DNA of 64,000 nt from Apostichopus japonicus (taxonomy: Eukaryota > Echinodermata > Holothuroidea > Aspidochirotida > Stichopodidae): assembly GCF_037975245.1 (NCBI RefSeq), contig NC_092572.1, positions 1,773,501-1,837,500 of the forward strand, written 5' to 3'. The notes beneath the pieces were generated by a model. That model worked only from the letters and a program-made list of their open reading frames with translations. It was not told where the DNA came from and did not search any database. Position numbers and translations under genes: made by a program. How positions within the stretch are numbered: position 1 is the stretch's first letter; each line of letters begins with the position of its first letter. Positions 444 through 62,909 of the stretch are shown here, piece after piece.

Positions 444-30588
<30,145 letters not shown>

Positions 30589-38225: not shown

Positions 38226-38353
38226 CTAGGATGGAGGATAGGCAGTAAAGTCGTACTGCTGACTTTGTTGTGTTGTTTCCCATTGACCAGTGTCGAAGTT
38301 ATAAGTTACATTGTTGTTGAATTTCATCCAGGAACCCCCTGATGAACGATCAA
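38226..38353 (-). CDS. Gene C last exon
   Basis: The minus-strand acceptor CCACAG (38359-38354) leads in phase 1 into a frame ending at TAG 38228-38226. It encodes a hydrophilic tail with NNNVTYNFDTGQWE and QQYDFTAYPPS. No known domain. The phase match with 42218-42306 supports it. Confidence 0.6.
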
Positions 38354-38401
38354 CTGTGGAGACGAAACAGGATACAAAACGGATATGATTAGAGAGAAAT
38401 A

Positions 38402-41400
38402 CTGACATTGACATTGACATCATTTATTTCCATCATCAATTAAATACAAGAATGTTGAGCGTAACATTTATAAGCTCACAGAAAGCACAATACAATATAG
38501 AGACAACATTCGTTGAATGGATATATATGTAGATAAATCAAGATTTAATGGAAATGGAGAAAAAAGAAGCAAAATGCTTATAAATACTTTCCCCAGTTAT
38601 GTATCTGTCTATACATGTAATACAGTGAAGGTAAATTGGTGATGGCAATAATAAATGGAAGAAAAAAAAATACAGAAAGCACTGAAAATAAAAACACACG
38701 TGTTGTGGCATATACGAGAAGGTGTATAACTTAATTTAAACAATCATCATCATAGGCTGTCAGGAAATTGTTTTTAAGTCATTTTTAAACAAACTTAATG
38801 TAACAGCAGATTTAATGGTTTTATCCAATGAATTCCAAATTTTAACACCAGAGAAGGAAATAGAAAATTGTTTTTTCTTTGTTCTTGCATAATTCAAATA
38901 AAAATTGCCATAAAATCTCTTATTGTTACTAAGTACAAAATAGCTTTGCAAAGTTGATGGCAGACTATTATGAAAAGCTTTATACATGAAAATACTTGTA
39001 TTGAAATCAATAAGATCAAAAAACTTAAGTGCTCGTAACTTATGAAATAGTGGGGAAGTATGGTCCAAAAATTTAGCCTTACAGACAATACGAATAACCT
39101 TTTTCTGTTTTAAAAATATTGGATGTACATTGGTTTTGTAAGTGTTACCCCATGCTTCCACACAATAATTCAAATAAGGAAGGAAAATAGCACAATATAA
39201 AGAATACAGAGCATGTGTATTAAGAACATGGCTAGCTTTGTAAATAGCACCAATACTTTTGGAAAGTTTACTTGAAATATGGGAAATGTGATCTTTCCAG
39301 GAGAGTTTACAGTCAAGAAACACACCAAGAAACTTGACACAGTTAACTTGGTCAATTTCTAAACCATCTATAGTAATGTTGACATTGTTACATGTGGAAT
39401 GGTTGGAGAAAATCATATAATTTGTTTTGTTTACATTCAATGATAATTTATTAAGGGCAAACCATCTACTTAACTTCTGAAGTTCGGTACTGACCAAATT
39501 ACATAATGTATTGATGTCACTATGACTGCAGAATATGTTTGTGTCATCTGCAAAAAAATGAAATTCAATATATTGGTAACATTGCAAATATCATTCAAGT
39601 ACAAAATGAAAAGTTTAGGTCCAAGGATTGATCCTTGCGGAACCCCACACAATACATTACATAAACCAGACTTTTTATTGTTAACTTGAACATACTGATT
39701 CCGGTTTGATAAATAGCTTGAGAGCCAATTTTGGACAATACCACGACAACCATAATGATTTAATTTTTTAAGTAAGATATTATGATCAATAGTATCGAAT
39801 GTTTTTTTCAAATCTATAAATACCCCAACGGCTGCTTCCTTATGGTCTAAAGAAGATGTAATTTTTTCAACAAGCTCAAGTATTGCCATATTAGCGGACC
39901 TACCGGACCTGAAACCGTATTGGTTCTCAGAGAGAATATTATGCTTAGCAATGAAATCATCCAACCTTACATCAAACAACTTTTCAAGAATTTTTGAAAA
40001 CTGTGGAAGCAGTGAAATAGGTCTATAATTATTGAAAGTATTCTTATCTCCAGTTTTATAGATTGGAATGACTTTAGCAACTTTCATTGCATCTGGAAAG
40101 ATACCACTGGCAAAAGACCTATTGCAAATAAATGTTAAAGGTTCAACTACATATAATATAATATCTTTTATAACTAACATACTCATGTTATTACAATCAA
40201 CAGATGTCTTACTAGAAAAATTACTCACAACTTGTAGCACTTCTGAAGTGTCTGTATCTGCTAAGCACATAGAATTCATATTGTGATTTTTAAGATAATC
40301 AAAAATAGACCCATCTTTATGAGGGATTTGAGCTGCTAGGTTTGGTCCTATACTTGTAAAGAAATGATTGAACCTATCAGCAATGGCCTCACCTGTTACC
40401 TCTTTATCATTTTCAACAAAAGTATCAGGATAGCTACTTTTATTTCCACAATTTCTGTTAATTATACTGTTCAACACTTTCCATGTCTCTTTCAAATTGT
40501 CACTATGCTTATTTATAAGCTCTGAATAATACTCCCTTTTACAAGATCTTAAGACTGAATTTAACCTATTTTTATAACTTGTGTACCTCAGTTCAGACTC
40601 ACTTGTTCTTTTCTTTAAGAATCTTATATAAAGCACTTTTTTCTTCTTACAAGCATTTTTCAGCCCTTTGGTCATCCATGGCTTGTCCTTAAATTTCCTC
40701 TTGGCTGACACCAACTTGATAGGACAAGTTTCATTGAAACACCTTGTAATAATATCAATAAAATTATTGTATGAAGAATTAACATTTTCCGCAGTGTAAA
40801 CTTGTTCCCATGACTCATTACTAAGCTTGCTATAAAATGCATTCATATTTACATCACTTTGATTTCTTATGTAGATACAACCATTGTCAGGAACTTGACT
40901 TTTTGTATCGTATCCATGACTACAAATTGTAAAAATGGGGAGATGATCACTTACATCACAAACTAATATACCACAATTATGTTCGGCCCCCAAGACATTT
41001 GTGTAAATGTTATCAATTAATGTAGCAGACTGACTGGTGATACCATTTGTGTAAATGTTATCAATTGATGTAGCAGACTGACTGGTGATACGCGTGGGTT
41101 TATCTATCAAAGGAAACATACTTAAACTACACAAGGCATTCAAAAAATCACGTACATGATTACTGTGCTCACAGTTCAACAGATTTAGATTGAAATCTCC
41201 ACACAGATAAACATTACATCTTTTATGTCTATACAGTTTCTCAAGAGTATCACACAATACTTCAACAGATGAATCAGGTTGTCTGTACATACAAGATATC
41301 AAAACAATCTTTTTGTTTGGCACAGAAACCTTAATTGTTATACACTCAAGTACATTAGTCAATGCAAAACCCATATCAGTCAAAACACTATATTTTAGGG

Positions 41401-41884
41401 TATTGCGAACATAAATCGCAACTCCGCCACCTCTTTTGTCTTTTCGATCTATATGGTGAAAATCATATCCAGTGAGTTGAAAAAGAGCAGTATTTGAGAC
41501 ATGACTCAACCAAGTCTCACTGATAGCTATGATATCAAAGTTAAAATGTAAGTTGTTTAAATAATCAACAAGGTAACAGAAATTTGCACCAAGACTTCTA
41601 CAATTAAAATGCACGACGGACAGGCCACAATCATTTGCATCATCTTTAAAGAAGTTGTCAGTATAATAGCTACAGTTAACATTATTGAATGAATTAAATA
41701 GGTTATTATCAGCATCAATATCCTGCTCATAATCAAGAGATTTGTAATCTGTATAGTTAAAAGGTTGGAAATTAAGATCATTCAATTGATTTCCGTGGTT
41801 ACTAATATCATGCATGTCGAAATTTGTGTTAGGTAAAAAGTCTTCAGCAGATAACTCATTGACGGGAAAAATATTATTAGCCAT
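38402..41884 (-). mobile_element. CR1/Jockey-superfamily LINE with frameshifted ORF2
   Basis: The long frame 41884-39470 carries an AP endonuclease (VVHFNCRSL, ISETWLS, GDFNLN, SDHLPIF) followed by reverse transcriptase (KVIPIYKTGD, NNYRPISLLP, YGFRSGRS, GVPQGSILGP). A one-base shift in a run of seven T's near 39560 moves the catalytic FADDTN motif into the frame 39587-38760, which continues to the ORF end (WNSLDKTIKSAVTLS). The 3' end has ATGTCA repeats (38402-38419 on the plus strand), a simple-repeat tail usual for this superfamily. No ORF1 is found, so the 5' end is probably truncated or just beyond 41884. It sits in gene C's last intron, same strand. Probably inactive. Confidence 0.8.
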
Positions 41885-42217
41885 AGGTGATTGTTACACA
41901 GCTTAAAATATTGCTACATAAGTTTACACTTGCAAGAAGTATGAAATGACTTACTCTGTCCCTGCACAGTAAAAAAGACTCATTTCTTGCATTTAAAAGA
42001 ATAAATCCACAACAACACAAAAGATACAAAAACAACACAGTTATTTCCATTTTCGTAATGCTCCTAGAACTGCATAAACAATAAGGTCAAGCACAACTAA
42101 TGCATGGAAATGCTCCTTTCATGGTTTAACTTGGTATTTTTATCTCGTAATTGAGTTAGTAATACGTTAAGAGACAACACGTAGTTTGCTTATGCATAAC
42201 ACACGTTCGATACTTAC

Positions 42218-42306
42218 TCTGAATCTTATCATGCAAGCGTGACGTAACTTGTTTCAGCTTTCTGATAGTTTCGCCAGAAAATGTATCCATGGCGCAATCG
42301 TGGAAT
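42218..42306 (-). CDS. Gene C exon 8
   Basis: Acceptor TTTTAG at 42312-42307, donor GTAAGT at 42217-42212; phase 2 in, 1 out. It encodes FHDCAMDTFSGETIRKLKQV..., a short amphipathic helical segment of no recognised family. Confidence 0.6.
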
Positions 42307-42552
42307 CTAAAACAAACAGAAATGTTAGAACTGTTGCCATGGTAATGTTGTTGAGACAATGTTAAACATCTAACTTATAATTATCATCCAAAATATTGAT
42401 ACTGTAACACGCAGTTATTATCCGATGTAAATATTGTTGATAGTGCTACTGGCACTGACTAAACTTTAGGAAAGATTTGTAGCTATGTGAAATTTTTAGA
42501 CATTGTAGTAGTAGTTATCCAAAGTGAATAATAAAGGCTTGTCATTACTTAC

Positions 42553-42719
42553 TGAAACTGTACTTTAGGCTTTTTCGCGATCCACTTAACTAAGAGAAGC
42601 ACTGCAGCTTCGTATAGTTCCCTTCCGATTATAACCACTCCCTGAACATTCGGTATTTGTAGATTGATGAGAAAGGATATGTCAACTTCGGTCTCAAAAA
42701 TTATCATGCCACGAGGGTA
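42553..42719 (-). CDS. Gene C exon 7
   Basis: Acceptor AACAG at 42724-42720, donor GTAAGT at 42552-42547; phase 0 in, 2 out. It encodes YPRGMIIFETEVDISFLINL, then VQGVVIIGRELYEAAVLLLV. The alternating strand and helix pattern resembles the C-terminal sensor region of NACHT proteins, but I cannot name a repeat family. Confidence 0.6.
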
Positions 42720-42924
42720 CTGTTTAAAAACCGATAAAAGACATTATAATTGTAAGTGTATAACATATTTTTTCTCATTAGCGGTAATATTAAATAAACG
42801 GTAATATAACTATGAACTCTATGGTCTTTCAAATGACCATAATTTGAAATTTAGAACAAATATTATGCGAGCAGATTTCGCTGAGAAATTATCACGTTAC
42901 CATTATGTATACCATATATACAAT

Positions 42925-43965
42925 TTCAAAGCAATGTAATTAACATCCTCAGGTTCATATTAACAAGAGTTGTAATATTATTCGTTATCAAAATTGCATT
43001 ACAATATAGTTCTTATAATTGACTGGCCAAGCATCTGTATATGTGGTTAACACAAATATGAAAAACCGTCCTCGATAAAATGAGCAAAAACGTATGAAAT
43101 CATTTCCAATTGCTCATAAATAAAACTTTACTCGGTAAAACAAAACTAGGCATTTCTCATGACATGCAAGTTGGCTAAAGCGAGGTAAAGTAAATATTTG
43201 CTCAAATTAAAAAAGAAAAACAAACATTATTATGGTTTTAGCATAAAATATCTGATCAATTAGAGAAAAGGAAATAAGTGAACTATGCAACTATGCAAGT
43301 TTTTATAAATTGTGTCACGTAAGATATTCTTATCTTACTTATTCACATACTTACATTCTTTTTCTTACAGAACGTGACGAAGTCCTTTACATTACGCTCA
43401 TGATACAAGCAGTCTACTTGTTTTAAAGTGATCTTCTCCTATAAAATGTCAAGGCAATGTAAATAACATCCTTAGGTTCATATTAACATGAGTTGAAATG
43501 TTATTCGTTATAAAAATGTCATTACAATACAGTTCGCAGTATTGACTAGCCAAGCATCTGTACATGTGGTTAACACAAATATGTGAAACCGTCCTTGATT
43601 AAAAGAAAAGAGTTGCATGAAATCATTCATTAATTGCTCATAAATAAAACATTACTCGGTAAAAAAAATAAACTTTACTCATGCGTTCAAGTTGGCTAAA
43701 AAAGCGAGGTAAAGTAAATATTCGCTACAATTAAATAAAAAAACTAACATTTATTATGGCTTTAGCATAGAAGATCTGATCAATAAGAGAAAGGAACATA
43801 GTGCACTATACAACTTTGCAAGTATTTGAAGATTTTGTCACGTAAGATATTCACAACTGACTTATTCACATATTTACATTCTTGTTCTTACATAACATGG
43901 AGAATTCCTTCACATTGCGTTCATGATACGAGCTGTCTAGTCGTTTTAATTTGATCTCCTCCTTT
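42925..43965 (-). repeat. Tandem duplication of an exon plus intron, offset about 523 bp
   Basis: About 42925-43440 and 43450-43965 align along their length, for example GCCAAGCATCTGTA (43026 and 43549) and GCGAGGTAAAGTAAATATT. Each copy contains one coding repeat (exon 6, and the last 28 codons of exon 5) and its downstream intron. This duplicated the C-terminal protein repeat. Confidence 0.85.
43355..43438 (-). CDS. Gene C exon 6: duplicated 28-residue repeat
   Basis: Exactly 28 codons, phase 0-0, acceptor TATAG, donor GTAAGT. It encodes EKITLKQVDCLYHERNVKDF and then VTFCKKKN, homologous to the end of exon 5 (EEIKLKRLDSSYHERNVKEF, then SMLCKNKN). A symmetrical exon can be multiplied without frame change. 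Confidence 0.75.
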
Positions 43966-45556
43966 GTTTCCAAAGAGGAAATTATTGTGTCCTTAACTTC
44001 TGTGCTTTGAACTTCGTAAAAGCAATCTATAAAATCATCCCACATATCCGCCTTCTTTAGTCTCAAAAGAACTTTCGTTTTGAAATTTGTATCACATTTT
44101 TTACCGCAAATGTATCTTAACGCATCTAAGAAGTCTTTATTTTGAAGATTTGTTGGGGTAGAAAGTTTGCTGAATTTACTGAAATCATCTAGAATAAACT
44201 GTCCTAAGAAAACTCCTCTTAGAACTGGATAACGAAGACTAACACAATAGTTCTTTGAACTGGAAGCATCATTCGATGAATACTCGTTTGTCTGCAGCAG
44301 ACCTGTTAAAAGAGCTCCTTTAAGATCACCTTCTGGTAGTTCTTTCCATTCGTTGACAGACTGTGGAGCCTTCTTATATAATGCACTAAGCAAAGCCTTC
44401 TCTATTTCTTTCCTCACCTGACAAAATTCGACTTTCTTCACATTTAGCTTTGTCTTGTAATGATCTTCCATACAGTCAATGCAAGATTCAACAATATTTG
44501 ACATACACCAAAGGCCCGCCGGACGCACACCTTCTGTGCTTTTGTCAACGTCCAGATATAGCAATGTCGATAAGAATAAAGGAACGTTGGGAACACGAGC
44601 AAAACCCCAAGACTCAATGAAATTACTGTTTTCCAACATGGGAGCTTTTTCACCTTCAACGGTATCTTGGGCAGAATGTAAACTTTGAGAAAAAAGAGCG
44701 TTCTTTCCTATCACCAGAGTGTCAGCTTTTTCACGATGGATACCTCTACAGCAAAGATGATAGTTGTTAATTCTTTTTGATAATTCTGTTATTTCTTCCT
44801 TTTTAAATTCGCTGAGCTCAATGATCGTAGACTTATAGTTTTTTGAACATATGCCATCAGTCTGGCGCAGTGCAATCCAAACTCTCATTTATTTAGTAGC
44901 TGTTGTTATGGCTTCGCAAATCTCGCTTCCATCTCCATCAAGTAGTTGCATTTCGTTACGGCCCTTTCGAATGGTATTCTCATCAGGTACTTTATTCTTA
45001 GAAATCTCTGTTTGGCGAGGGAATGTTCTATTTAGAAGTTCGCGAACATATGCTGACACATTACCACGCAGGTCGTCTACATACAGTTCGCTAAAGCCAT
45101 CTATCAGAACAATGACAGGCTCATTCAACAAAATAGCAGAGACATCTTTGGTTTTTAAATTGCAATTTGAGGCTAGATCGTCCAATATTAATTCAATGAT
45201 ATTCTTCTGGTAGTTTTTGTAATTCAGATGTACATAAATTAGAACAAACGTTTTCTCTTTTTCCTGAATCCATTGATTTACCATCTGTAGAAAACATGCT
45301 GTTTTCCCATATCCAAGATCTGCTTTCAATATAACAAACTTGTTCTTGAGAAGGTTTTTATTCATCATCAATTTACCGGTAGTTGTCTTTTGTGGATACT
45401 TGTCATTCATCCATTGAACGGAACATTGTCTATCCACGTACAAGGTATCAATATTGAGAGATACAGCTTTTCCGGGGAAAAGATTCAAGTACAGGTGATG
45501 TTTATAGCTCTCACAGAGTAGAGACACGAGATTCTCTAGCTTTTTATCTTTTTCTG
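43878..45556 (-). CDS. Gene C exon 5: NACHT NTPase, interrupted by TAA
   Basis: About 559 codons, phase 1 in, 0 out. It enters just after the transmembrane exon and joins it in frame. Near the N terminus is KFVILKADLGYGKTACFLQM (Walker A, about 45300-45345), then VIVLIDGFSELYVDDLRG (Walker B, about 45080-45125; Asp-Gly-x-Ser-Glu where DGxDE is usual). MRVWIALRQ lies at the sensor-1 position and PNVPLFLSTLLYL fits the later helical NACHT region. A single TAA (44891-44889) sits directly before MRVW and the same frame continues on both sides, so it is a point nonsense change rather than a frameshift. The exon ends with the first copy of the 28-residue repeat. If expressed, the truncated product would keep both Walker motifs but lose the rest of the NACHT. 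Confidence 0.75.
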
Positions 45557-47889
45557 CTAAAAAAAAATGAAAAGTTTGAAAATGTTTAACTCTAGCTTAA
45601 AACAATGATTATCTTATGGAAATATATTACTGCTATAGAATACGCTTTACTACTAGTTTATGATAACATCTAATGCCCTGATCAAATACTGTCGAAAGTT
45701 AGTGATACTTATTATTTAGTGATTTACATTTCGTCGCAGGATAATCGTCTTCAAACACGCTAACGTTTGACGTCGCCTGAAAAAGAATAATTATTTGTTT
45801 AAGCAAAGACTGACAAGTTTTATTCGCATTTCTACCGTTTATGTTACTATAGACCAGAAGAATGTTTATGCAGCAGCGTTGTAGCAAGTAAAAGAATATA
45901 TGTCAGTAACGTGTACGTACGCGTGGTCCTGTTTTTAACAAGCGTTAAATGTTTTAGCAGCCGCTTGGAATATATCAATCAAGCATAACTGGTAGTATCA
46001 TAAATTGCACGAATAATCATATAGTTCTATTCCGGCGCGAGCAAAATATCGCTTCATTTATTACTGAACTTTACTGCTGAAGTGAAGTCATTGTAATGAC
46101 AGCAGGGCTGTCGTAATTGAGACCATTGAGTGTCAGGATGAACCCTCGTTAAAGGAAAGGAGGCAATCTTACAAATGCAGTTTTAACCACAGTAAAATTT
46201 ACAGCATTTTCTGAATGAAGCCGATTGTTGGGATGGGCTGTTATTAAAGTGCTGCATAAGTCAATTTAAGAACAGCCCATCCCTGAATGGGGAAATGGAA
46301 GGATATTGAAAATTTGAACAATTGATATTAAACAAGAAAATAAAGATATATAGTGCAGTTTAAAGGGTAATGTTTATAGAAGTAAACCTAAGTAAAAATT
46401 CATTTAGTTACTCCCAAAAACAATAACAACAAAATTTAGAGCCACTGTGACGGGTGGCCTACTGTATCGTATAGTCTAGCTAATGCAAGCGGCAATGGCT
46501 TCTTTTCTTTAGGAGATGGAACAAGATATTGACTCCTTCATATATGTAGGCTAGAAGGATACATTTAGAGGGAGAACCAGAAATACACAGATGAACAGCT
46601 TTTGTATGGCAAGATGATGAAAGCGCCACCACATAATTTCTGGATCGTTCAGCTAGATTAGTTTGTATCATCAACGAGATTTGTACAGTTTTACAAGAAA
46701 GTGTTGATTGATTCTTAGTTTCAAATACTTTATGAGCTGTACAAATGTCTTATTTTATACCCACAAGTTTTCATAAGAAAATATGAAAAAAGTTATAGAA
46801 TTAAACCACTACTTATTTATTTACTTTTCTATGTTTTAAATGTTTCCATAGATCTTTGCAGAAGACTGGCCATGAAAACTCTTTCAGTTAATTCATTTTG
46901 CTTAAAGTATTCTTTAAATGTGTATTTTGCCTGGACATCAAAATTCAGAACGGTAGAGACACTTGTGCCAGAGAGGAAGTGCCTACTTTATGTTGGGTCA
47001 ACCTCAAAATAACCTATTACATATACTATACTGGTCTCGGACTGGCGGGACTTGATTGCAACTCTTCAACAAAGTGTCAATAAATACTGCGGATTCTGAT
47101 TCAGGTGTATACAGTTTGAACAGACTATTTCAGGATAATTAAGGATTGAGACTTAAGGGTATAGGTAATTACTTGTAGGAAGAGATGATACGTAAACCTG
47201 CACACAACATCTAACACCAAGAGTTATGATTTTGTTTTACTGCACTACATGATTCTATAAGCAGAATATTACACCCTCATACGTCACTATAACCTGTTGA
47301 TATTTATGTAGGACACGTTCTTAAAATAAAACTTGCAATTCGTAACCTTTTAATTCATATGGCTTAGTTCTTCTATGCTTCCTTCAGGGGTCCCTTAGAA
47401 AAGAAAAGTAAAATTTGTTCATTTAAGTTAACACGTAAGTCTTCAATGATATAACAACTGACGATTTGATCAGAGATAAAATCAAAATAGAGGAAAAAGT
47501 TAACTAATGGATGTATTCAAGCTAACTTTGTAATGTCGGGTTATCATGATATTGTTACGAACATAGTAAATTTGTTCTAATTTTACACCAGACATCCAAT
47601 CTATACCGAAGAACACATGAGCAATTAATCTTTAGATTCTGTTCTCATTCATATCGCGGTATTTTTATTTGAAGGTCAACTGAGCATGCAAATTAAAATA
47701 AAAAATAGTAAATTATTTCTTGTTAACATAAATAAAATACAAAGGTCTATGTGAATCAATATATGAATGGTACACACTTCTGAAATGTGGTACACAATTT
47801 ATCCCATCCACGGGAATATATATTAAGGCTGAAGACATTGATATTTAATATTAATAAATTGATTTAATAAAACAAATAAAAAATCTTAC
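45557..47889 (-). other. Gene C intron between the transmembrane and NACHT exons
   Basis: About 2.3 kb. A 13-bp inverted repeat GGGATGGGCTGTT / AACAGCCCATCCC (46230-46242 and 46271-46283) forms a strong hairpin with a 28-base loop. A possible extra exon at about 45710-45780 (frame ATSNVSVFEDDYPATK) has splice-like ends, but its phase does not fit its neighbours, so I leave it out. Confidence 0.5.
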
Positions 47890-48072
47890 TATATTTCTCT
47901 GTGTTATGTCTCTTCCATAAACAAAAACACACTGGCATCATAGAAACAATAACGACAACGATTATGACCAGCGTAGAAAACGGAAGAATTGGAAAGGGAC
48001 GAGACGTTTCCGAAGCTGATGGAAGTACGGTTGAAGAGTAATTAGCAACAACGTTGTCCGAAGAACATGAAT
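47890..48072 (-). CDS. Gene C exon 4: stalk and transmembrane segment
   Basis: Exactly 61 codons, phase 1-1. It encodes a Ser/Thr/Pro-rich stalk, then FSTLVIIVVVIVSMMPVCF (hydrophobic membrane span), then WKRHNTEKY, a basic stop-transfer segment. The orientation places the Ig domains outside and the NACHT in the cytosol. Donor GTAAGA, acceptor TTTAG. Confidence 0.8.
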
Positions 48073-48495
48073 CTAAAGAAAGAGTATACATTGGCTTGAA
48101 ATGTTCGCGTATTCAATAGTTGTTCATACACATTGTAAATGATCATAGTAGCGAAACGAATTACAGCAAACTAAAGCTAGCCGTATTCAACAACGTGCAG
48201 AGTAGTTTCTTTTGAGTATTGTATTTAACTAAATATTATGAATGGTATGTAATTTAAAAAAAAAAAAACCTTTGAACTAAACTTCAAGATGCCACATTTT
48301 ACTATACTCGACTACGGTAGTTACATATTCATCTATTAAATATAATTCATAAAATTTTAAGTATAAGCAAATTCTCTGTTTTTTAGCTTAACATTTTACA
48401 CCACTACTTGGTTAACGACAAACTAAGAATGCCTTGTGTGTTCAAGATTATTTAAAATCATTTTAACAGTCAATAGATGATCAAGACAAACTCAC

Positions 48496-48822
48496 CAGCT
48501 TTTATCTCAATATTACTGTCAGAACGCTGCATAAGATTTACATCTCCTTGAGACAGGCATCTGATCTCTGCAAACCCACCACACGCTGACACTGTGTATT
48601 CGGCAGATATGTATGTGTCCCATGTACCATTAATATAATGTGAAATGGGTTCTTTTGTTGTGAATTGCAGACTGTTGATATTACTTATCTCCCATTGTAG
48701 AGATATTTTAGGACAGGATCCGCTAACTCTACATATTAGCTCACCAGTTTGGTTTACTCGTAGGCCGCAAGTTAAACATGAGCTACAACCACTGATCTTT
48801 GGGCATTCCTGCTGCGGACGAA
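48496..48822 (-). CDS. Gene C exon 3: cysteine-rich Ig-like domain
   Basis: 109 codons, phase 1-1. It starts with the Cys cluster CPKISGCSSCLTCGL. An Ig-like core follows: ELICRVSGSCP, ISLQWEIS (the conserved Trp), then AEYTVSACGGFAEIRCLS. Several N-glycosylation sites (NQT, NGT). The extra cysteines suggest additional disulfides. Confidence 0.75.
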
Positions 48823-49412
48823 CTGACAAATATAATCAATTATTCAATATATTCGTAATAAGTATCAATTTGATTTAAAACTGTAACGGGAGGTTAACAT
48901 AAACATAAAGTCTGGCTCGGAGTAAAATACATCAATTTTTCAATTGTATATAGTACATTATGACGCAACAGTCATGATAGATACACTGGAAATGTTACGA
49001 TGATCGATAGTTTTTCATCAGCGCATAATGAAGGAAATGTAAAAAAATTAGATGTGTATCAATTTGAGATCTGAATGAATTTTTGTATAAAAAGAAGGGG
49101 AGAAGTCTTTCTTTTCTTCAATAAACAAGTTTTATTAAATTGTATATTACCCCATAATGCTACAATAAACCGATATATATAACTGTATTGATTGATTCCT
49201 CAGTTTTGTGAAAATAGAACTATTTATTGCAACATCTGCTATGAAACCGATACTAGCAACGATTGCCTGATGCTTTAAAAGATTAACGAACTTAAAGGAT
49301 TAACATAAAATGTTGTCAAGAATTAGAACTCCATTTATACTGTGACGGGAATGTCCAGTCATTAAGATTATGCCCATTCACTACTATTTGTATTTGGAAC
49401 AGTACATGTTAC

Positions 49413-49724
49413 CTGTTATTTGTAAGGTGATTTGTTCTTGATGGTAACTTTCTGACGAAAAATAAGTAACAACGGTGTATTTGCCTTCATCTTCTAATTG
49501 CGCGTTCGAAATTAACATTTTGCCTTCTAAATTGATATCAAATCGAATTTCGTCATACAATGTGCCAGATTTTTGGTCATTCGTTAAAACAAGGATTGGT
49601 TTTGTACTGGATGTAGGTCCATTAAACCAAAACACCTCTTATGGCACGTCAGTTGAACTGCACCCAATCGTTGCATTGCTGCCCTTCTCGATTTGGTAAG
49701 TTGATTGGCAAGCCATTTTTACAC
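49413..49724 (-). CDS. Gene C exon 2: Ig domain with an in-frame stop
   Basis: 104 codons, phase 1-1. It encodes YQIEKGSNATIGCSS (B-strand Cys), a TAA at 49641-49639, then EVFWFNGP (C-strand Trp) and QLEDEGKYTVVTYF. The F-strand keeps D-x-G-x-Y but has Val where the second Ig Cys is expected. The same frame continues past the stop. Confidence 0.75.
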
Positions 49725-50216
49725 CTACAGGAAAACGTTTTAAAATCTATTAAAAATGTTTGAAGTTCTGCGAAAAATAAATTAGTGATATTTGATTAAA
49801 TTAAAACCCCTTTGAGCCTTACAACTAGAATGACAACATTCTAACTATTGTTTTCTTCAGAACAGCATATTTAAATAACGTAATATTTCATGCATTGGTA
49901 CTATCAAAATGTTCACCAAGTGACCAAGCTACTGATATCACTAATAAAAACCAGATCACTCTGCTTATTGTTATTAGGGGGCAATATATCATTCTCATTT
50001 ATAAAGACGATGAATAAATATCTCGAGATTTAACCCATGCTAATGTCAAACTTAGTTATTTGTATTGTAAGCAGAACTCTTCTGCATCAGATGAGCAACA
50101 TTTCTTAATGTATTGATGTCACTGACAGATGCTTAATTTAGATTGTTATTCACTGGCAGTGATTAAATACAAACGTCATTATTGATATCATCGAGTACAT
50201 AGGACGTTATACTTAC

Positions 50217-50289
50217 CTATAAAAGTATCAAATGCAATGAGCAGGAGGAACCAAGATTCGTAGGTTGCACTGATACTCTTCATTTTCAT
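50217..50289 (-). CDS. Gene C exon 1: signal peptide
   Basis: The minus-strand ATG at 50289 starts MKMKSISATYESW followed by a hydrophobic run FLLLIAF, then a donor GTAAGT at 50216. It leaves in phase 1, matching the Ig exon. A second ATG lies two codons downstream. Confidence 0.7.
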
Positions 50290-52815: not shown

Positions 52816-52943
52816 TCAATCGACACTTGCAAGATTGAACGATGATGATGATGACTGCAACGAGCCATCCATATCGACAAAGGACGATGTTTTCGTCAGT
52901 GCAAGTTCTTTCCTTTTTATTACGCTTGTTGTTCTTGCGAAAG
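52816..52943 (+). CDS. Gene B leader exon
   Basis: Acceptor TTACAG at 52810-52815, donor GTAATT at 52944; leaves in phase 1. The frame that fits the Ig exon reads ...SASSFLFITLVVLAKG, a signal-like hydrophobic run, but contains no Met. The ATG repeat at 52842 is in another frame. The start is either in an upstream exon or lost. Confidence 0.45.
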
Positions 52944-53042
52944 GTAATTATTATATGTATAAATTATTATATGTAAAAACCGATATAAGAGTCATGTGAT
53001 TCCTTGTACAATTATTATATATTCTTATTTTTCATGTTGCAG

Positions 53043-53372
53043 GAGAGTGGCGAAATGACCTTATTTGTAGCAGTAAGGAAAACTCTACAAATAGTAATTT
53101 TGTCGACTGTGAATGTTCACGCAATTCTTCAAATTGTTTAATTTGCAAAGCGTCAAAAACAGATACAGTTTCGTGGTTCAATGACGGGGAAAACAAAATA
53201 TTAGCTAAGGACACGTTTGTGGTATCCCAAAACGAGATCGTCAAGCTTAATATTTGTAGCTCGGTAAATCATTCTATGATGATTACTACGCAATGCAGTG
53301 AAGAAAACCAAGCGACGTTCTCTTGTCGCCGTAAAAATCTGATAGTTACGAAGTTCTTTTTGAAATTACAAG
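53043..53372 (+). CDS. Gene B Ig exon 1
   Basis: 110 codons, phase 1-1, acceptor TTGCAG, donor GTAAAT. It encodes EWRNDLICSS, a Cys cluster (VDCECSRNSSNCLICKAS), TVSWFNDGE (conserved Trp), LNICSS and QATFSCRRKN. Rich in Cys and N-glycosylation sites, like gene C's second Ig exon. Confidence 0.7.
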
Positions 53373-53535
53373 GTAAATAACTCACTTTTGTCTCATTCAT
53401 GGTTTTAGAGGGAATACATGCAATAATTTTAACACGTCATGCGAGTGTTTAATTTGCCTTTTGTGTTTTAAAGTTTAGTATTTAATAACTTCAAATTTAA
53501 TGTACAGATAAATTATTATGTTTACATTTTAACAG

Positions 53536-53721
53536 TCACTCCAGTTGTCCTTTTGAATGGAGGTAACGTGACAGGTGACAACTCTTTACTGATAATGCCT
53601 AATAAGCATGAAACTATTCAATGCAAAGTTCTAGACGCAGTTTTACCCATTTCAATTACATGGTACGTTAACAACGGAACGAAGACGGAGGTATCCACTG
53701 AAACCTTTAATAACGGGACAT
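53536..53721 (+). CDS. Gene B Ig exon 2, truncated by a stop
   Basis: It enters in phase 1 after TAACAG. It encodes VTPVVLLNGG, HETIQCKVLD (first Cys), ISITWYVNNGT (Trp) and TETFNNGT, then TAA at 53719-53721. The F-strand with the second Cys is missing. Downstream sequence is low-complexity (G run) with a 26-bp direct repeat, so the rest of the exon appears lost or replaced. Confidence 0.6.
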
Positions 53722-53761
53722 AATAACTATTTTATATTATATGAGGGTGGTGGGGGGGGGG

Positions 53762-53886
53762 GATATTGGTTGAAAGAAATCAACACGATGTCAGCTATAA
53801 TTTTATTTTGCATTGTTTTGTGGAGGGTCCATACATTTCCAAGCAAACAGCTTCCCTGTCGATATTGGTTGAAAGAAATCAACACG
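53762..53886 (+). repeat. 26-bp direct repeat, 99 bp apart
   Basis: GATATTGGTTGAAAGAAATC plus CAACACG occurs at 53762-53787 and 53861-53886, just after the truncated Ig exon. It is compatible with a small local duplication or insertion that damaged the exon. Confidence 0.8.
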
Positions 53887-54011
53887 GTAAGTTTATTACT
53901 TCTTCCAATCATAAAGGTCCCCAATTCGAGTCCCTCCAAGATTAATGTATGTCGTTCAGTTACAGAGTTGTCGACAATTGATAATTCATAATCATGGAGT
54001 TAAATATGAAT

Positions 54012-54110
54012 CTAAGAGACTGACTCCGGTCAGCTTGCGGCTCTGATAAGCCAGGGAGGCTTCTTCGCGAGTTCCTGCTTGCAGGAGGATCTAAAATGCA
54101 TACATACATA
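54012..54110 (+). repeat. Possible SINE or LINE 3' end
   Basis: A GC-richer stretch with a CCTGCTTGCAGG hairpin ends in a (CATA)n tail, CATACATACATACATAC (about 54095-54113). Stem-loop plus simple-repeat tail is typical of non-LTR 3' ends. No family assigned. Confidence 0.35.
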
Positions 54111-54938
54111 CATACTACTTGGTTAAGTTTGTCACCATGTTGGTAAATGATAAAAAAAATGCTGAAAATACAAAATAGATTGTTATTTGCTAGTTAAACT
54201 TGGAATCAAGAAATTAAGCGAAACTTGCCAATGACAAGTATACAATTACCCTCAACTAGTAAAACCCTACATTTTCTGCATTGGAGTTAAATAATCTTTC
54301 AAAGAAGCGGAAAATTACAACCCCAAAATTACAATTGAATTTTAGTATTTCTCGTTAGGGCAGCAACATTATTAGACGCACATATTGCGCAAACTTTCTA
54401 TATGCAAATGCAAATATATATGTATGCAATCTCGTCTTTAAAAGTAAACGCAGTTTCATAAATCGTTTCGACTGAAACAATTTCCACTACAAAATAATTC
54501 CAATATTGAAAAATGTATGGGGAATGTCGTCATAATGACGATCAAATCGAAAATACCTACCACGATTTTGTTTCTCCGATGGCTGAGAGCAGGCAAGCAG
54601 TACTAAATACATTCATTCACCGCAATGAACTGATCCCATCTATTAATAGAAAAGTAAATGATACCTTTGTTCGAAATTTTAAAATTGAGACAAAAGTTAT
54701 CACAGCTTTTTACATTTGGAACAATATGTCAAAGTGCAAGATAAGTGTAAGAAGCGATTGAAATTTCAATCCGTCTTCTGACACCTTTTTTAATTTGGAA
54801 ATATTTCTTTCACATTAAATAGGAAGATTATAAAAAAGATTGTAATTAATTGAATCGAAATTAAGGAAAGATATTCGGAAATTTCAATTGATAAGACATT
54901 AAAGAATATTTATAGACAATCGAAATACTCATTCGCAG

Positions 54939-55421
54939 GAACTAACTTGACGATTTCAACTAGGATAACTACTGCTGTGGTCATTATCGCTATTCTTCTT
55001 GGCATATTAGTCGTTTTACTGTTCAGTGGCGTAGGAAGGTACTTTTGAGTGGGGGGGGGGCTGAAGACTTATGTCCGGCCTGGGGGAGGGGTCTAAGGGG
55101 AGGGGTGTCCCCCTCCCCTTTGGATTTTTTTTGCATTTCCAGGCAGCCTCAGTTGCAATTTGGTGCAATATAGCACACTTCAACACCGACTCCATTTTGT
55201 AAACTTAATTTTGTATTTTCACCTGGCCTTAGATGCAATTTGGTGCTCCAAATGAGATTTTTTTTCTCATTTGGAAATTAAAAAGGGGTTTTCTGACTTG
55301 CGAAGTGGGGGGCGGAATGATACTTCCGCCCCTCCACATTTTTCCCGGGGGGGCTGGCGCCCCCCAGCCCCCCCGGTTCCTACGCCCTTGTTAATGTTTC
55401 TCCGTAACATGAAGATAATAT
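54939..55421 (+). pseudogene. Gene B transmembrane exon split by a MITE
   Basis: 54939-55023 encodes TNLTISTRI then TTAVVIIAILLGILVVLL, a membrane span. The MITE follows. 55399-55421 encodes the basic LRNMKII segment and ends at the donor GTGAGT. The two parts sum to 108 bp, a symmetrical phase 1-1 exon. Read through the MITE, the frame ends after SGVGRYF at a TGA near 55047. Confidence 0.75.
55024..55390. mobile_element. hAT-type MITE (family 'GGCGTAGGAA'), gene B copy
   Basis: Target duplication TTACTGTT (55016-55023) and TTAATGTT (55391-55398), 7 of 8 identical. Ends CAGTGGCGTAGGAAGG and (inverted) CAAGGGCGTAGGAACC. It is the reverse-orientation partner of 19644-20018 and highly similar throughout, so the family was active recently. 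Confidence 0.85.
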
Positions 55422-56495
55422 GTGAGTATCACTAGTTTAGGGAGTGTAGAAAATCATAACATCATACTGAGAGGTGAAAGCTAATATACGACATAGATAC
55501 GCGAATACACTCTGTAACAAGTTATTTGTAACTTCTGTGAAAAACAAGTTTACACGAACATGTTGGGAACGTCAATAATAACAATTTTCCATATGCAGAA
55601 GTAACAATACAGTGAGTTAAATGCAATGACAAAGACTTAACAGCATTTACTTAAAATATGCAACTAAAATGTTTCGAATAGGGGGAAATATCTTAATGCA
55701 TAAGCCGTTGCCAATTTTTGAATATGACGTACGGCATAAGACTATAATAACTTAAAAATATAAAGGGAACACATATTTCTCTTAAATCTTTCAACCATTA
55801 CGGATTGTGTCGGTCTGTGAACATGTTACAATATTTGGTACTTGTTTGATTACGACAGCAGTGTGGACTCATGAACGTACAGAGGCAAGGGAACTGGGTG
55901 TTGGGGTTCGGACGAACCTCTGAACCCGACCAAGAGAGAAATGAAGGAGAAATGAAGGAGAAATGACTAACACATTACCGTTTTATATATTTTGATCATT
56001 TATATTACTTTAAATTTAATATAATTTTAATTTTTCTATTCACATTCTTTGTTAAGATCTGATCACTATAAAAAAACATATTTAGCTTACTAGCGTGTAG
56101 ACTAGAGCTACACAGCTAAACAACGCTGCAACATTGATGACCAATTACATGGATTAGTCAATAATCAGTTACGCCGACATTGCTAACATGGAAGCCTAAA
56201 GGGAAATTACAACAAAATAATACAATTTGCTTTATGGTACACTGCGAATTTGACATATGAATGCATAATCCTATAGTTATTGGTGTTACAGATCAGAGAA
56301 ATAGTTCCAATGTAAAATGCCCAAAACTAATACAATTGACCGGATTGCTGCGGAAAGACTAGAATACACTTCTACAATGGTCTTGCTTTGTATACTATAA
56401 TATGTTGTTTGAGTTGTCTGCACTTCGGTGGAACTGAAATTTACTCAAATTTTGGGAAAACGTGAATAATATGAAACTAATTTGATTTCTTTCAG

Positions 56496-56523
56496 CATCG
56501 CTGCAGCAACGGTGCACCCGAAG
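56496..56523 (+). CDS. Gene B candidate 28-bp microexon
   Basis: TTTCAG before and GTAAGATC after. Its phases (1 in, 2 out) are exactly what is needed to link the transmembrane exon to 60435-60499. It encodes SLQQRCTR. Short, so only moderately supported. Other splice-bounded pieces at 59780-59800 and 60322-60340 do not fit the frame. Confidence 0.4.
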
Positions 56524-58448
56524 GTAAGATCCCAGTATCAGTTCGCATATCACCTATTTACATAAAATAACTTAATAATATAGAGAAAAGTAGTAAACAT
56601 GTTTGTCCATAAACAAAACAGATCCTGTTTGAGAATATATATCAAACTGTCATCAATCAACACCATATTTGTGTTTATTTTCTTTGATTTACATTTTCTG
56701 TGAGGTTCTTCTCTCCTAAGAGCAATTATCACTACCATACTTTCGGCTTATAACATCGCTAACGTTGCAATATTCATCTACTTTGTTTACTCCTACACTT
56801 CTTTGTTAAGAAATGTATGCAGTTAAGACAAATTAGTCTCATAGCGTATTTAAATGTATTTTAGTTTCTTGACATGGCTATGGTCACGCACTTCGATGGT
56901 CCTTTAATATACATAAGGCAGTTGCATTCTTTAACGAACCCAATATGAAATATTATATCTCATCATACGCAATCCTTTTCTTCTGTTGATAATCTTTTCA
57001 AAGTCGATTCTGGACACAACTTCATAAAGCTGATTCACGCACTACCGAAGAAAATACCTACAACGAGTGTTATGAAAGCAGCGACCACGGATATGCTTCA
57101 ATACCTCGCTAACTTGCCAAAAAATACGGAATCAATGCAACACCAACTCGATTGCAGTCTTTTTAGTTACTTATTTGGAGTACGCATATTCATTTTGGTT
57201 ATAAAATGGTTATAAAATATCGTCCTGGTGTTGCAATATCTTAGTCGATGATTCAGGTATCTACATTTGAGATTATGAATGGACATAAAACACTTTATGA
57301 AATCAAGGTTTTGTGTAAACTGATAGATTGAAGTATTTACATGATAGTTATATTATTAATGGGATGTCTTGCCAAGAAACGAAACCGTAAGTGCAGTATG
57401 TACAAAACTGTGTTCATTGTTCTTTATGGAGTAGCGCTCAGTTAATAACTATATGCAGGCTCTGCTTTTTCACTTTTCATTGTCTGTTTGAACCGCTAAA
57501 TGGCAAATTATTTCAAAGCGAATAAGGAAGTTGGTGATCGATTCAACTGAAATTGGGACTACAGCCAAATGTACTGTTCACTATAATCTTTGTTTCATAT
57601 TGTTGTCACTTTCACACTAAGTATTATGATATACGTCAATGTTTTAGTTTCGTATTCGATGTTATCTCCTTTCTATTTGTACTGGGAAGTAATCAAGGTT
57701 TCTGTGTATATAATGCGTTGATTGAAATTTTAAAGCTATAAATTTCAAGGGACAATATGAGCAGTCTTGCAGTATTAAGGACCTTCATTTCATGTTCATA
57801 CATTACATTAACGTATGTTTTCCAAGCTATTTCTAGAAATATACGCAACCGAAGAGTATGTAATCTAAAGAGATAATTGAGCGGCTTCTTTCATGCTGTC
57901 AGAGTAACCATTCGCACAACGCGCCAACATGTCCAAATACATGTAACTTATTTATTTCTTAAGTATGAGAACAACGACATTTATGACGAGATAAGAGGCT
58001 GTAACATCTGGATTACACACCCAGCGCTCTACAAACTTAGCTACCCAGCCCTTGTTCTTAGCGATCCATATATACACGTATGCTTTGTCATAAGACACTG
58101 TATACACCGTAAACTTTTTAACCTGTAACTACGTCCCATTTTGCTTTGACGCAACCTAGAAAGCGAAACTCACCACCAGACAGTACCTCATCAAACGATA
58201 CAAATCTTGCAATATGTTAATATACTTACAAATTTTGCGTAACCATATACTGCCATCACAACAACATGACCATAACGTATACGGCATCCAGTATGCCAGT
58301 TTAAATTAGATTATTTCGTATTATTGGACTTCGAAATACCATTCACTGTACAAAGCATACTTAAATCACTGTTCGTATTTGCAGGGTCAGCGATTTGGAG
58401 GCAACAGGACTGTAGCTACTTTCATCCCCATTTTCTCGCGGGCTCCGT

Positions 58449-58472
58449 GATATATATATATATGTATATGTT

Positions 58473-58536
<64 letters not shown>

Positions 58537-58543
58537 TATATAG
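58449..58543. repeat. (TA)n microsatellite
   Basis: TA/AT tract with a few interruptions directly abutting the solo LTR. Confidence 0.9.
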
Positions 58544-58947
58544 TGTTGTGAAGTCTACAGGTAAGGAGAGGAAAGCTGCTTATATCCTAGGGATAGCTTA
58601 AGGGGATTACAAAGCTGGGATTACTTTGTGCATAGACACTTGCTAATAGGATTAAAGTATAGAGCTAGAGATGATGAGAGGGGTTACAGGCAGTTGGACT
58701 GTGGCTTTTGTGAGGTGAGGAGCAAAGGTATTAGGAGGAGACGAGAAACGGAGAGAAGCGTAAGGGAGTGTGGGAAGATAAGGAGGAGAGTGTTGCCAGG
58801 AAGCAGAGGTTGCTAATGGAGAATTGATGTTAGTGAACTGTGAAAGGAAGCAGTAGAGTTATGTGGAGCTATGTGGAGTCTAAAAAATAAAGGAAGAAAA
58901 GCAACGAATGACACTGTCTTGAACTTATTACCCCACACTACGTAACA
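58544..58947 (+). mobile_element. Solo LTR, 404 bp
   Basis: It starts TGTTGTGAAG and ends TACGTAACA (TG...CA), flanked by the 5-bp duplication TATAG (58539-58543 and 58948-58952). An AATAAAGG polyadenylation-like signal lies near 58886. It is unrelated to the Gmr1-like LTR. No internal region is present, as after LTR-LTR recombination. The frame at 58628-58816 inside it is not a gene. Strand is inferred from the position of the poly(A) signal. Confidence 0.7.
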
Positions 58948-60434
58948 TATAGCATTGGGAATTCCAGACACGTCACAGGGAATTCCAACTCAATAGAGCT
59001 ACATATATGTCAGTTGTTATACATATAAACAGGTACTCTACTTTAGCATTTCCACGCGTACAAGGAATGAATACAGCGTTTCTGTATTTACAGTAAGTTT
59101 GCCTATACAGCAATCGTCACAATCATAACAGATGTGCACATGTACAATACAATAGAATGTAGCTCTCTTGTTAGTAATAAACGGAATTGGCTATGAAACA
59201 ATTTATGCTGTGTTCCTTAGAGGCCATAGCCACGTATTTTTCGAATGACAGTATTTGCTGGGTAGGGGACAGGATCCCAGTCAAATGTCCTATCCCTGTT
59301 ACCCCTCACCACCCAAATGACATTTGGGATAAGAAAGTTCGGAAGACAATTAAAAATTCATTTAAAGTCTCAGTCAAACCAGCTCGCGGTCGACGTTAAT
59401 CATGCAGTAATGGAAGAAAACTATCAAATTAATACCAGACAATTGCGTTTACTTAAATATTAGGCCCATGTCTGCCATCAATACGAACTTTGGTCCCGGT
59501 ATCAATAACCTGCTTATTTTTTATCATGTTAATAATTCTTATAATATTCTGATAAGAAGATTAGTATTTCACTGAAATTGATACAAGGAAATTCAAGTAG
59601 TCCATAACATGTGTGACAGATAGAAATCATGTGCTTCTTACACATTTCAAGGTCAATTGATTTTTCCAAGAAAGATTTAAGGCAAGCAAATATCACTAGT
59701 CTGAATAATCACCTGGTGAACATTTACACTGGAGACCCAAGTAATTAGAACAAATATATATTATCTTTCTTTTTTGACAGATGCAGTGCCTGTAACCAGT
59801 GGTAAACAAAATTGTTTATTTCCTTTCAAGTTTGTCTACATAGTTATACAATTCCAAGCTTAACAAGAAAGTAATATTAACAATCTGATTCCAATAATAT
59901 CGTACTGTGTCAAATACGATACAAAAACGATATAAATACCAAAGCCTGGAAGCATTTTCCAAGGGTCGCTATGATTTAGTCAATGAGAAATGATTTTTTA
60001 TTTGTGGTAAACAATTATCTTCTCATCCGTACTTTTAACAAATGATATTAAGGGTTAATAGTATATTAAGGCAGGGTTTATTGATTGCCCATGAACAATA
60101 AACTTTTCAATCATTACATTATAATAAATTCACTTGGCCTCCCAGTGACTTGAGACCATTCGAATAGGGGAATATAACACAAGTAGGTTTTCTAATTTGA
60201 TTAATAATTATGGCCACATAAAGGGAATAGTAATTAATTTTGGGTTACTTACCCTCATTGTGGATGGATTAACCCAAATATCCATTTCTTCTATGTCCGT
60301 TTAAAGTTTCAGTAACAAGAAACCGCCAAGGGTGAGTATTATTAAAAACATGATATTGTAAATTGAATTAACGTTTATAATACAATCCAAAACTTATATT
60401 TTGCTTTTGATTAATTATTTTCCGTTTGGTTTAG

Positions 60435-60499
60435 AAATATCAACTCAAGTCATCAAACGAACGTACTCGATAAAGAAGCCTTAGATACCGATCAATCAA
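60435..60499 (+). CDS. Gene B juxtamembrane exon
   Basis: Acceptor GTTTAG, donor GTAAGA; phase 2 in, 1 out. It encodes NINSSHQTNVLDKEALDTDQ. Its out-phase fits the hinge exon at 60825 directly, so a transcript can skip the kinase N-lobe position in frame. Confidence 0.5.
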
Positions 60500-60824
60500 G
60501 TAAGATTTTTACACCACGCCTTCCTAAAACTCAGAGTGTGACTATGTCCGCCAAATGGAACAGAAAGGAATGGAATATACTAAGGAGCTGATATAATCTT
60601 TTGGTCATCATAAAGATATGACAAAGAACCTGAATTAGAAATAACTATCTAAATTAGCTGCTGAGCGATTCCAGAATTGTGGTAATTATTTATTATAATA
60701 ATAAAGTTTCTTACACCACAATAATTATCATATGCAGGTCATTTCAACATATGTTAATGTATTTTATGATAAACACGTTTTGTTTAACGTAATTTATTCT
60801 ATTTTGTTTCTTGTATTGTTTCAG

Positions 60825-60997
60825 ACAAACTGTTTCTTATCAGTGAACACCTCGTTAGTGAAAACGTGCACAAAGTATTTTCACGTGGCACTAAATATGA
60901 GATGGACTACTATTGTTGTAGTTCATTGTCAGTTCCTGACGTAATCAAACATATAGCAGGAGTTTTGGAAGGAATGGACTTTCTTAATACGTTTGGT
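60825..60997 (+). CDS. Gene B exon: kinase hinge to alpha-E region
   Basis: Acceptor TTTCAG, donor GTAAGG; 173 bp as in gene A. It encodes KLFLISEHLV, DYYCCSSLSVPDV and GMDFLNTFG. Confidence 0.8.
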
Positions 60998-61235
60998 GTA
61001 AGGTAACGGATATAGACCTTTGCACTTAATACTTAACCACAGTTGTAACGTGTGTTCATATAGCTGTATGATTATTGAGTATTATCGTCATCTTCATTAT
61101 ATTTATATTTTTATAACCTTATTTTGATTTCGTATTTCATATCTAAGTGAACAACGTGTTAACACTGTGTCTCATATTACCCGTTTGTGCTTCTCCACAC
61201 ATGAATCTAACTTATCGATTTTCATCTTCGTTTAG

Positions 61236-61355
61236 TTCCTTCACCCTGGCTTAACAACTATAAAGGTTTTGCTAACCAAAGAAGGACAGGTCAAATTATT
61301 TGGCTTCTGCCTGGCTCGCGATGCACCGAAAATAGCTGCTCTTAAGAAAGAAAAG
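61236..61355 (+). CDS. Gene B exon: degenerate catalytic loop and DFG region
   Basis: 120 bp, phase 0-0. FLHPGLTTIKVLLT replaces the HRDLAARN loop and VKLFGFCLARD replaces DFG, so both catalytic Asp residues are gone. Compared with gene A the exon has 11 synonymous and 6 non-synonymous codon differences. Confidence 0.85.
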
Positions 61356-61972
61356 GTAGAATAAAAATGTATAATTCAAATATTAATTACATCTTTAAGA
61401 TAAATACTTTCTCTAATAAACTTATTCGTCATCCCGTAATAAATCTTCCAATCACTCATTGATTTAATTTACCCAATTATTAAAATCAGCATAATCTCCG
61501 GCTGAAAAAAAAAAAACGGTCTGCGGCTTTTTTGGGTATAATGCTACAGGTTAGACTTGTATGGTTGAAGTTGATCTCGATGTTTTACATTTTGTTTTAG
61601 ACATTTAACAACTTTGTGTGCCAAATAAAATGCATTAAAGAAATAACGAGGTCTAGGTTGTACTTACATAACAGAGAGCAACAAAACAAATTAAATTCAA
61701 CCTTCTATGAGATTGCTTTTTATTTGAAAATGTTTCGATTATATTGGATTATAGTTTACAATAACATGCATGACTTGTGTGCGTTGTTTTAACTAATGCA
61801 GTTACAGCAACTTCCTCTTTTGCTACGCCTTTACCCAATGTGATAAAGTTCTCCACACACTCGCTTTAACAATGTTCGCCCCAATGAAGCACCAATGTTC
61901 ACCGTGCATCTAATTTAATTGTTGTTTAATAAAACATTTTAATTCATATTAAATATTTGATTTTTGCATCAG

Positions 61973-62087
61973 ATTCGTTCCATGATTTTGAATCAATTTC
62001 CACCTGAAATGTTAATGTTGAATCAGTATACAGAATCCAGTGACGTTTGGTCTACAACAGTAGTAATATGGGAGATTATGAAAGCGG
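61973..62087 (+). CDS. Gene B exon: activation segment end and subdomain IX
   Basis: 115 bp, acceptor ATCAG, donor GTAAAT. It encodes NQFPPEMLMLNQYTESSDVW, then the WSTTVVIWEIM helix. Confidence 0.85.
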
Positions 62088-62815: not shown

Positions 62816-62909
62816 GAAATCCACCATATCCTATTGACCGGGAAGTTAGATTTGACGAGGAAAATATCAAACCATCAGTTCTCTGGCCCGAGAAGTACTT
62901 ACAGATATA
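62816..62909 (+). CDS. Gene B exon: helix G region, splice donor lost
   Basis: The 94 bp align base for base with gene A 28303-28396 (GNPPYPIDREVRF ... WPEKYLQI). After ATATA the next bases are TTAAG, where gene A has GTTAAG, so the G of the GT donor is deleted. Unspliced, the frame ends at a TAA one codon later. Confidence 0.75.

Follow-up and report, generated by a model that had tools for sequence, protein, structure and literature searches.

Gene structure of the locus

The sequence analysed here (the window) is a stretch of 64,000 nucleotides from the sea cucumber Apostichopus japonicus (contig NC_092572.1, positions 1,773,501 to 1,837,500), in which a gene of nine exons lies on the minus strand (50289-38226). 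The exons encode, in order, a signal peptide, two immunoglobulin (Ig)-like domains (Ig1 and Ig2), a transmembrane (TM) segment, a NACHT exon, a short exon and three C-terminal exons, and they are joined by eight GT-AG introns with compatible phases. An earlier note, made from the letters alone, had described a surface receptor gene of the Ig-TM-NACHT type, and the exons, strand, phases, Walker A, Walker B and both stops that it named are present in the sequence. Hereafter the window copy is called A, its paralogs in the same genome are B, C, D and E, and C12, C16 and so on are contigs. The features of the gene are the following.

50217..50289, minus strand: exon 1, start codon and hydrophobic signal peptide, phase-1 end (hydropathy 1.62; kept in B and C)
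49413..49724, minus strand: exon 2, Ig1 of V-set type with the first in-frame TAA (V-set match on the part after the stop)
48496..48822, minus strand: exon 3, Ig2, the Ig-like domain next to the membrane (recognised by conserved cysteines; no Pfam match)
47890..48072, minus strand: exon 4, TM helix (TLVIIVVVIVSMMPVCFCL) and basic stop-transfer KRH (hydropathy 2.88)
43878..45553, minus strand: exon 5, NACHT NTPase and following region (acceptor at 45553 conserved in B-E)
43355..43438, minus strand: in-frame duplicate of the last 28 codons of exon 5, phase 0-0 (within a tandem duplication)
42553..42719, minus strand: C-terminal exon, phase 0 to 2, without accepted family match (B's version also tested)
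42218..42306, minus strand: C-terminal exon, phase 2 to 1
38226..38353, minus strand: last coding exon, stop codon included
38763..41893, minus strand: retrotransposon without long terminal repeats (non-LTR), of the long interspersed nuclear element (LINE) type, in the last intron and not belonging to the gene (two overlapping frames encode endonuclease and reverse transcriptase)

The window copy is a damaged gene. Its reading frame contains two TAA stops, the first within Ig1 and the second in the NACHT exon, between Walker B (VIVLIDGFSEL) and the MRVWIALR strand; Walker A of this exon is DLGYGKT. The earlier note had concluded from the two stops that the copy is broken, and to these a duplicated NACHT-exon end can now be added. 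A tandem duplication (43355-43963, minus strand) copied the last part of the NACHT exon together with the intron that follows, with blocks 82-95% identical at a spacing of 523-524 bp, and gave rise to the extra exon 43438-43355. This exon is in frame, as had been claimed, but it is a product of the duplication, and no counterpart was found in B or C. The NACHT exon and its place in the order were also borne out, while its start was corrected from 45556 to 45553, because the acceptor is a NAGNAG in which the second site is the one kept in B-E. Translation of the window copy would end in Ig1, and most likely no receptor is produced from it.

Domain composition of the predicted protein

Domains were assigned with the Pfam cutoffs of 26 bits for V-set, 26.7 bits for NACHT and 21 bits for C2-set_2. 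The part of Ig1 after its stop matches V-set with 26.7 bits, and the cutoff is also passed in B (32.1 bits) and E (29.0 bits). A PDB profile search with A1 gave a single match, a chitinase (E 0.93). For Ig2, there is no Pfam Ig match in the window copy or in E, and B has only C2-set matches under the cutoff. In the alignment, Ig2-type membrane-proximal Ig domains share six invariant columns (C, C, L-x-C, P, C) across nine sequences, among which is AjNLRC4, a published receptor of the same species; C (broken), D (close to E) and locus L067 are not part of this alignment.

The earlier note had proposed a hidden Markov model search of exon 5 against the Pfam NACHT profile. It turned out that the window exon up to its stop scores 21.3 bits (E 2.6e-4), under the cutoff, while the cutoff is passed by paralog E (28.5 bits) and by the relatives L036 (27.4 bits), L027 (46.3 bits) and L005 (75.0 bits). 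By hydropathy, a signal peptide is present and a TM helix lies between the Ig domains and NACHT (TM values of 2.88, 3.48, 3.42, 3.09 and 3.28 in A to E), with one strong TM per protein in A-E (for C, in the first 300 residues). The exon models place the Ig domains N-terminal and NACHT C-terminal to this helix. No LRR was matched by Pfam in the NACHT exons of A, B and E or in B's C-terminal exons, and no CARD, Death, DED or PYD in the window exons or in the Ig and NACHT exons of B and E. By these searches, the gene shows neither the C-terminal LRR nor the N-terminal CARD, Death, DED or PYD of an NLR in the strict sense (NACHT plus LRR).

Paralogs in the C12 cluster

To characterize the relatives of the gene, we searched the genome with the window NACHT exon, and at least 69 matches were obtained (226 candidates, 78 scored). 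Among the matches listed, B (81% identity in NACHT) and C (75%) are closest to the window copy, followed by other C12 matches including D and E, which are 35-36% identical to B. Paralog B (C12:2032892-2023846) is the intact relative that the earlier note suggested looking for: it has eight exons, the same as the window gene without the duplicate, with phases 1-1-1-1-0-2-1, and is open for 988 codons. In paralog E, 878 codons are open up to and including the NACHT exon, where the gene models of both D and E end; further downstream in E, the three C-terminal exons were matched in order and without change of strand, at 33-43% identity and with E values from 2e-9 to 5e-4, the exon ends and splice sites being approximate. 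In paralog C, Ig2 is damaged and the length of the TM exon differs by 1 nt, so that the frame of C is broken at two length-changed exons, and D contains a TGA close to where its NACHT exon ends.

The exon order is common to A-E as far as they are modelled, and the splice phases are identical in A, B, D and E. The recurrence of this order in B, C, D and E indicates that the architecture of the window gene is not due to chance. Besides, no in-frame methionine (Met) codon lies between the upstream stop and the NACHT acceptor in any of A-E, and inside the exon none occurs up to Walker A in D and E, while A, B and C have Met codons there. A stand-alone NACHT gene is therefore unlikely.

About four further copies were seen on the plus strand of C12:0.77-0.93 Mb (L012-L015 and overlapping pieces), near 0.771, 0.807, 0.900 and 0.926 Mb. 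The longest matches from these copies contain stops and reach 59-71% identity to the NACHT exon of the window gene; the region is a graveyard of subfamily copies in the opposite orientation.

Selection on the exons

The ratio of nonsynonymous to synonymous substitution (dN/dS) was estimated by the Nei-Gojobori method, with the bootstrap range in brackets, and constraint was claimed only if the range excluded 1. For the B-E pair, the ratio is 0.35 (0.17-0.61) in Ig1 and 0.40 (0.21-0.70) in Ig2, so both ectodomain exons are under purifying selection between these distant paralogs. In the NACHT exon, the ratio is 0.43 (0.30-0.60) for A-B, 0.57 (0.41-0.79) for B-C, 0.66 (0.48-0.95) for D-E and 0.70 (0.50-0.995) for A-C, and dS is saturated for B-E. 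With C as outgroup, 28 synonymous and 63 nonsynonymous changes fall on the A lineage, and 38 and 57 on the B lineage (raw counts without significance test; two further B changes were scored as stops, since they were read on A's codons). These counts lean weakly towards relaxation in A.

Comparison with AjNLRC4 and other known proteins

AjNLRC4 (MN607598) of A. japonicus has, in the available text of two reports, extracellular Ig-like domains, a TM and an intracellular NACHT, with CARD and LRR unreported there (PMC8699970, PMC11932488). It is described as located at the membrane, binding microbes via its Ig domains, oligomerising and leading to actin and Arp2/3-dependent phagocytosis (PMC8699970, in the part available); after internalisation, caspase-1 is reported to be activated through the Ig domains, with MLKL cleavage and lytic death (PMC11932488, likewise). 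The qF primer of AjNLRC4, as printed in the accessible part of PMC8699970, has a single exact match in the genome (C16:4498344), and three other places match with 3 mismatches, about the level of the reversed control. The qR primer matches exactly at C16:4498513, while EX-F and EX-R, used for cloning of the ectodomain, have 1 mismatch each after removal of the restriction sites and span C16:4497304-4499117. Within C16:4.497-4.503 Mb there are Ig-like frames, a TM-like frame of hydrophobic character and a NACHT exon that scores 66.4 bits (over the cutoff), and AjNLRC4, or a very close copy, lies there.

AjNLRC4 resembles the window gene in the Ig-TM-NACHT order, in the species and in the membrane-proximal Ig, which shares the six invariant columns with the window Ig2. 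It differs in its contig (C16 against C12) and in its NACHT, which belongs to a different clade (21.7% identity over 129 residues, E 5e-7). According to the published text at hand, its ectodomain is longer, with the TM at 483-503 against about 271-289 in the window gene, and a second TM is given at 776-795, for which the window gene has no equivalent by hydropathy.

Another protein of the species, AjNLR-new (PIK48001.1; 1197 aa), likewise combines Ig, TM and NACHT; in the part of the description available it has two TM segments and a reversed topology, with NACHT extracellular and Ig intracellular (PMC13133943). The earlier note had regarded animal NACHT proteins as cytosolic and had taken no family of Ig-NACHT receptors at the membrane to be established. 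The reported membrane location of AjNLRC4 contradicts the former, and the existence of AjNLRC4 and AjNLR-new, as their partial accounts describe them, the latter. In another holothurian, Chiridota heheva, the 2022 genome report describes NLRs with a V-set domain that was not seen in sea urchin, similar to the window gene in joining a V-set Ig to NACHT; no transmembrane segment is mentioned in the portion available (PMC8913654). The available parts of the ctenophore (PMC11797021) and amphioxus (PMC2575513) accounts contain no Ig-TM-NACHT protein. Since the architecture has already been published, the window gene is a broken addition to a known receptor class, in which the C12 subfamily stands separately. 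For this subfamily, its gene structure, the size of the Ig-TM-NACHT family and its spread over several NACHT clusters, no account was found in the titles and abstract beginnings of the open-access papers listed.

Spread of the architecture in the genome

A NACHT profile search of the genome was scored for 106 of 488 candidates, all of which (106 of 106) exceeded the cutoff. We then summarized the upstream flanks of 12 further NACHT loci, hand-picked from different clusters, three of which were extended. Ig-like frames and a TM precede NACHT at half of them (6 of 12; L043, L045, L046, L051, L052 with L067, and L054), which indicates a multigene family of such receptors. At two loci (L044 and L047, both with extended flanks) a TM was found but no Ig was recognised, and three (L048, L050 and L053, one clade) have no recognised upstream domain. 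At the remaining one (L049, C6:5754901-5759400), a Death domain frame of 54.5 bits, in place of the Ig-TM of the window gene, lies upstream of the best NACHT match of the genome among those scored. The NACHT loci at C12:28.5, C17:14.2 and C10:8.63 Mb form another clade than that of the window gene, and no Ig or strong TM was recognised in 4.5 kb of their flank. Exons upstream of the C12:28.5 Mb locus look DED-like by eye, but Pfam gave no match and DED is not claimed; the 'DED' label and two 'q' rows in the tree come from inspection by eye.

Pfam Ig matches exceed the cutoff at four of the six Ig-TM loci (V-set 26.1 bits against 26 in L043, 43.2 bits in L046, C2-set_2 21.7 bits against 21 in L045, and V-set 29.8 bits in L054). 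L051 has no Pfam Ig match and was called by alignment, and the Ig frames of L067 were also called without Pfam. AG followed by two bases, as for phase 1, stands before Ig2 in L043, L045, L046, L064 and others, though some ends do not fit. NACHT on one large open exon is found in the Death-NACHT gene and in other NACHT genes of the genome as well. In the NACHT tree, the window clade is apart from the AjNLRC4 clade, and the Death and unassigned rows are nearer to the latter, with long branches. When the 14 Ig-TM or TM rows were held together against four others, the approximately unbiased (AU) test did not reject the grouping (p-AU 0.173; 18 rows, with seven ungrouped rows dropped).

In the AjNLRC4 clade (L045, L054, L067 and L064), a single open frame of 230-276 codons holds two Ig-like domains, while the C12 clade has one-domain exons.

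Interpretation of the locus

Very probably, the locus is a damaged copy from a tandemly duplicated subfamily of A. japonicus receptors that cross the membrane once (type I), each with a signal peptide, a V-set Ig, a second Ig-like domain, a TM, a cytoplasmic NACHT (STAND) NTPase and a short C-terminal region. What carries this reading is the gene structure, the intact paralog, the purifying selection between distant paralogs and the same architecture elsewhere, including the locus found with the AjNLRC4 primers. In intact members, the Ig domains outside the cell would bind a microbial or damage ligand, and binding would cluster the receptor. The cytoplasmic NACHT may then act as an ATP/ADP-switched oligomerisation module that assembles a platform, which would drive uptake and downstream killing, as reported for AjNLRC4. 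For the window subfamily, we infer these steps from the shared architecture. Thus the architecture part of the earlier proposal, a surface receptor signalling through NACHT oligomerisation, stands at the gene level, and the signalling part is drawn from the likeness to AjNLRC4.

Several points weigh against this reading. In the domains, B's NACHT scores 17.6 bits, below the Pfam cutoff, and the fold of Ig2 is unconfirmed (a single-sequence AlphaFold model has a predicted local distance difference test score of 41 and was not interpreted). Only B is open from start to stop among the five modelled genes, and the stops or frameshifts in A, C and D indicate frequent decay of this sub-cluster. The Ig ranges of close pairs mostly pass 1 (A-B Ig1 0.67, 0.26-3.2; A-B Ig2 0.90, 0.36-3.4), and no constraint is shown for Ig1 of B-C (0.68, 0.32-1.7) or D-E (0.52, 0.19-2.1); dN/dS is over 1 in four short-exon comparisons (signal peptide and last-but-two exon of A-B, signal peptide and TM of D-E). 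The splicing from TM to NACHT is predicted from conservation. On C16, the intracellular primers IN-F and IN-R of AjNLRC4 were not found with up to 4 mismatches in 9.4 kb around the qF site, and its small interfering RNA matches the same 9.4 kb only with 4 mismatches, so this locus may be a very close copy rather than AjNLRC4 itself. The AjNLRC4 mechanism may not carry over to a subfamily about 22% identical. Besides, the contact of AjNLRC4 with caspase via Ig and the reversed topology of AjNLR-new, both taken from partial texts, are hard to square with a plain model of Ig outside, which leaves the mechanism unsettled.

It could be supposed that an Ig-TM gene and an adjacent cytosolic NACHT gene have been read as one, given that the TM-NACHT intron is 1.4-3.5 kb long and the junction is known solely from genomic DNA. 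We consider this very unlikely, because A, B, D and E agree in order, in strand and in the phase 1 of both donor and acceptor (in C, the TM-exon length change breaks the frame), the NACHT exon has no Met at its 5' end to start it, Ig-like and TM frames precede NACHT at six of the 12 further loci, and AjNLRC4, as published in part, has the same order in one protein. Somewhat less improbable, though still unlikely, is that the window copy works and its stops are assembly errors, or that it is a null allele of a working gene. The remainder is open, the A-B NACHT ratio is low, and there are just two stops in an assembly made, according to the available text, from one animal with HiFi reads (PMC10344927); against this stand the two separate stops together with the duplicated exon end, the broken state of C and D, and the lineage counts, which lean weakly to relaxation in A. 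Least probable of all, we think, is that NACHT lies outside and Ig inside, as the accessible report on AjNLR-new has it, since the hydrophobic signal peptide before the Ig domains and the basic residues after the single TM predict that Ig is outside.

Neighbouring features in the window

Head-to-head with the gene lies another one (52848-63922, plus strand), with a signal-peptide exon, two Ig-like exons, a TM exon and exons matching tyrosine kinases. Its first Ig exon has no Pfam match, and the second is below the cutoff and contains a double stop. The kinase exons match PK_Tyr_Ser-Thr with 77.1 bits and have HPG and LFGFC at motif positions, which we take to replace the HRD and DFG motifs. 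The neighbour is a putative Ig-TM pseudokinase gene or its remnant. A preprint on Holothuria glaberrima (PMC13228809), in the part available, cites NLRs and tyrosine-kinase receptors as families that have expanded in A. japonicus; the latter expansion, as cited there, fits the kinase-like neighbour.

For the retrotransposon in the last intron, Pfam gave RVT_1 (94.4 bits) and Exo_endo_phos (43.1 bits), and its second frame matches RVT_1 below the cutoff (26.2 bits). A long open frame of an LTR-type retroelement (2352-6962, minus strand) has SCAN, zinc-knuckle, integrase, reverse transcriptase and RNase H matches. In this frame integrase comes before reverse transcriptase, which is an unusual order for Ty3/gypsy elements.

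Implications for the NACHT repertoire

In sea cucumbers, much of the NACHT repertoire may have been relocated to the cell surface, a proposal to which we give about even chances. It would comprise a tandemly expanding, exon-shuffled family, with phase-1 Ig and TM modules before one NACHT exon, at least two deeply diverged NACHT clades and perhaps dozens of genes, forming a diversified surface recognition repertoire in which AjNLRC4 would be one member among others. The usual teaching is that NLRs are sensors in the cytosol. A surface NLR family with Ig ectodomains, one member of which is tied to phagocytosis and lytic death, would show a second way of coupling ligands outside the cell to a STAND switch. 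For asking which members bind what, a concrete gene set is provided by the exon model, the intact paralog B and the C12 cluster.

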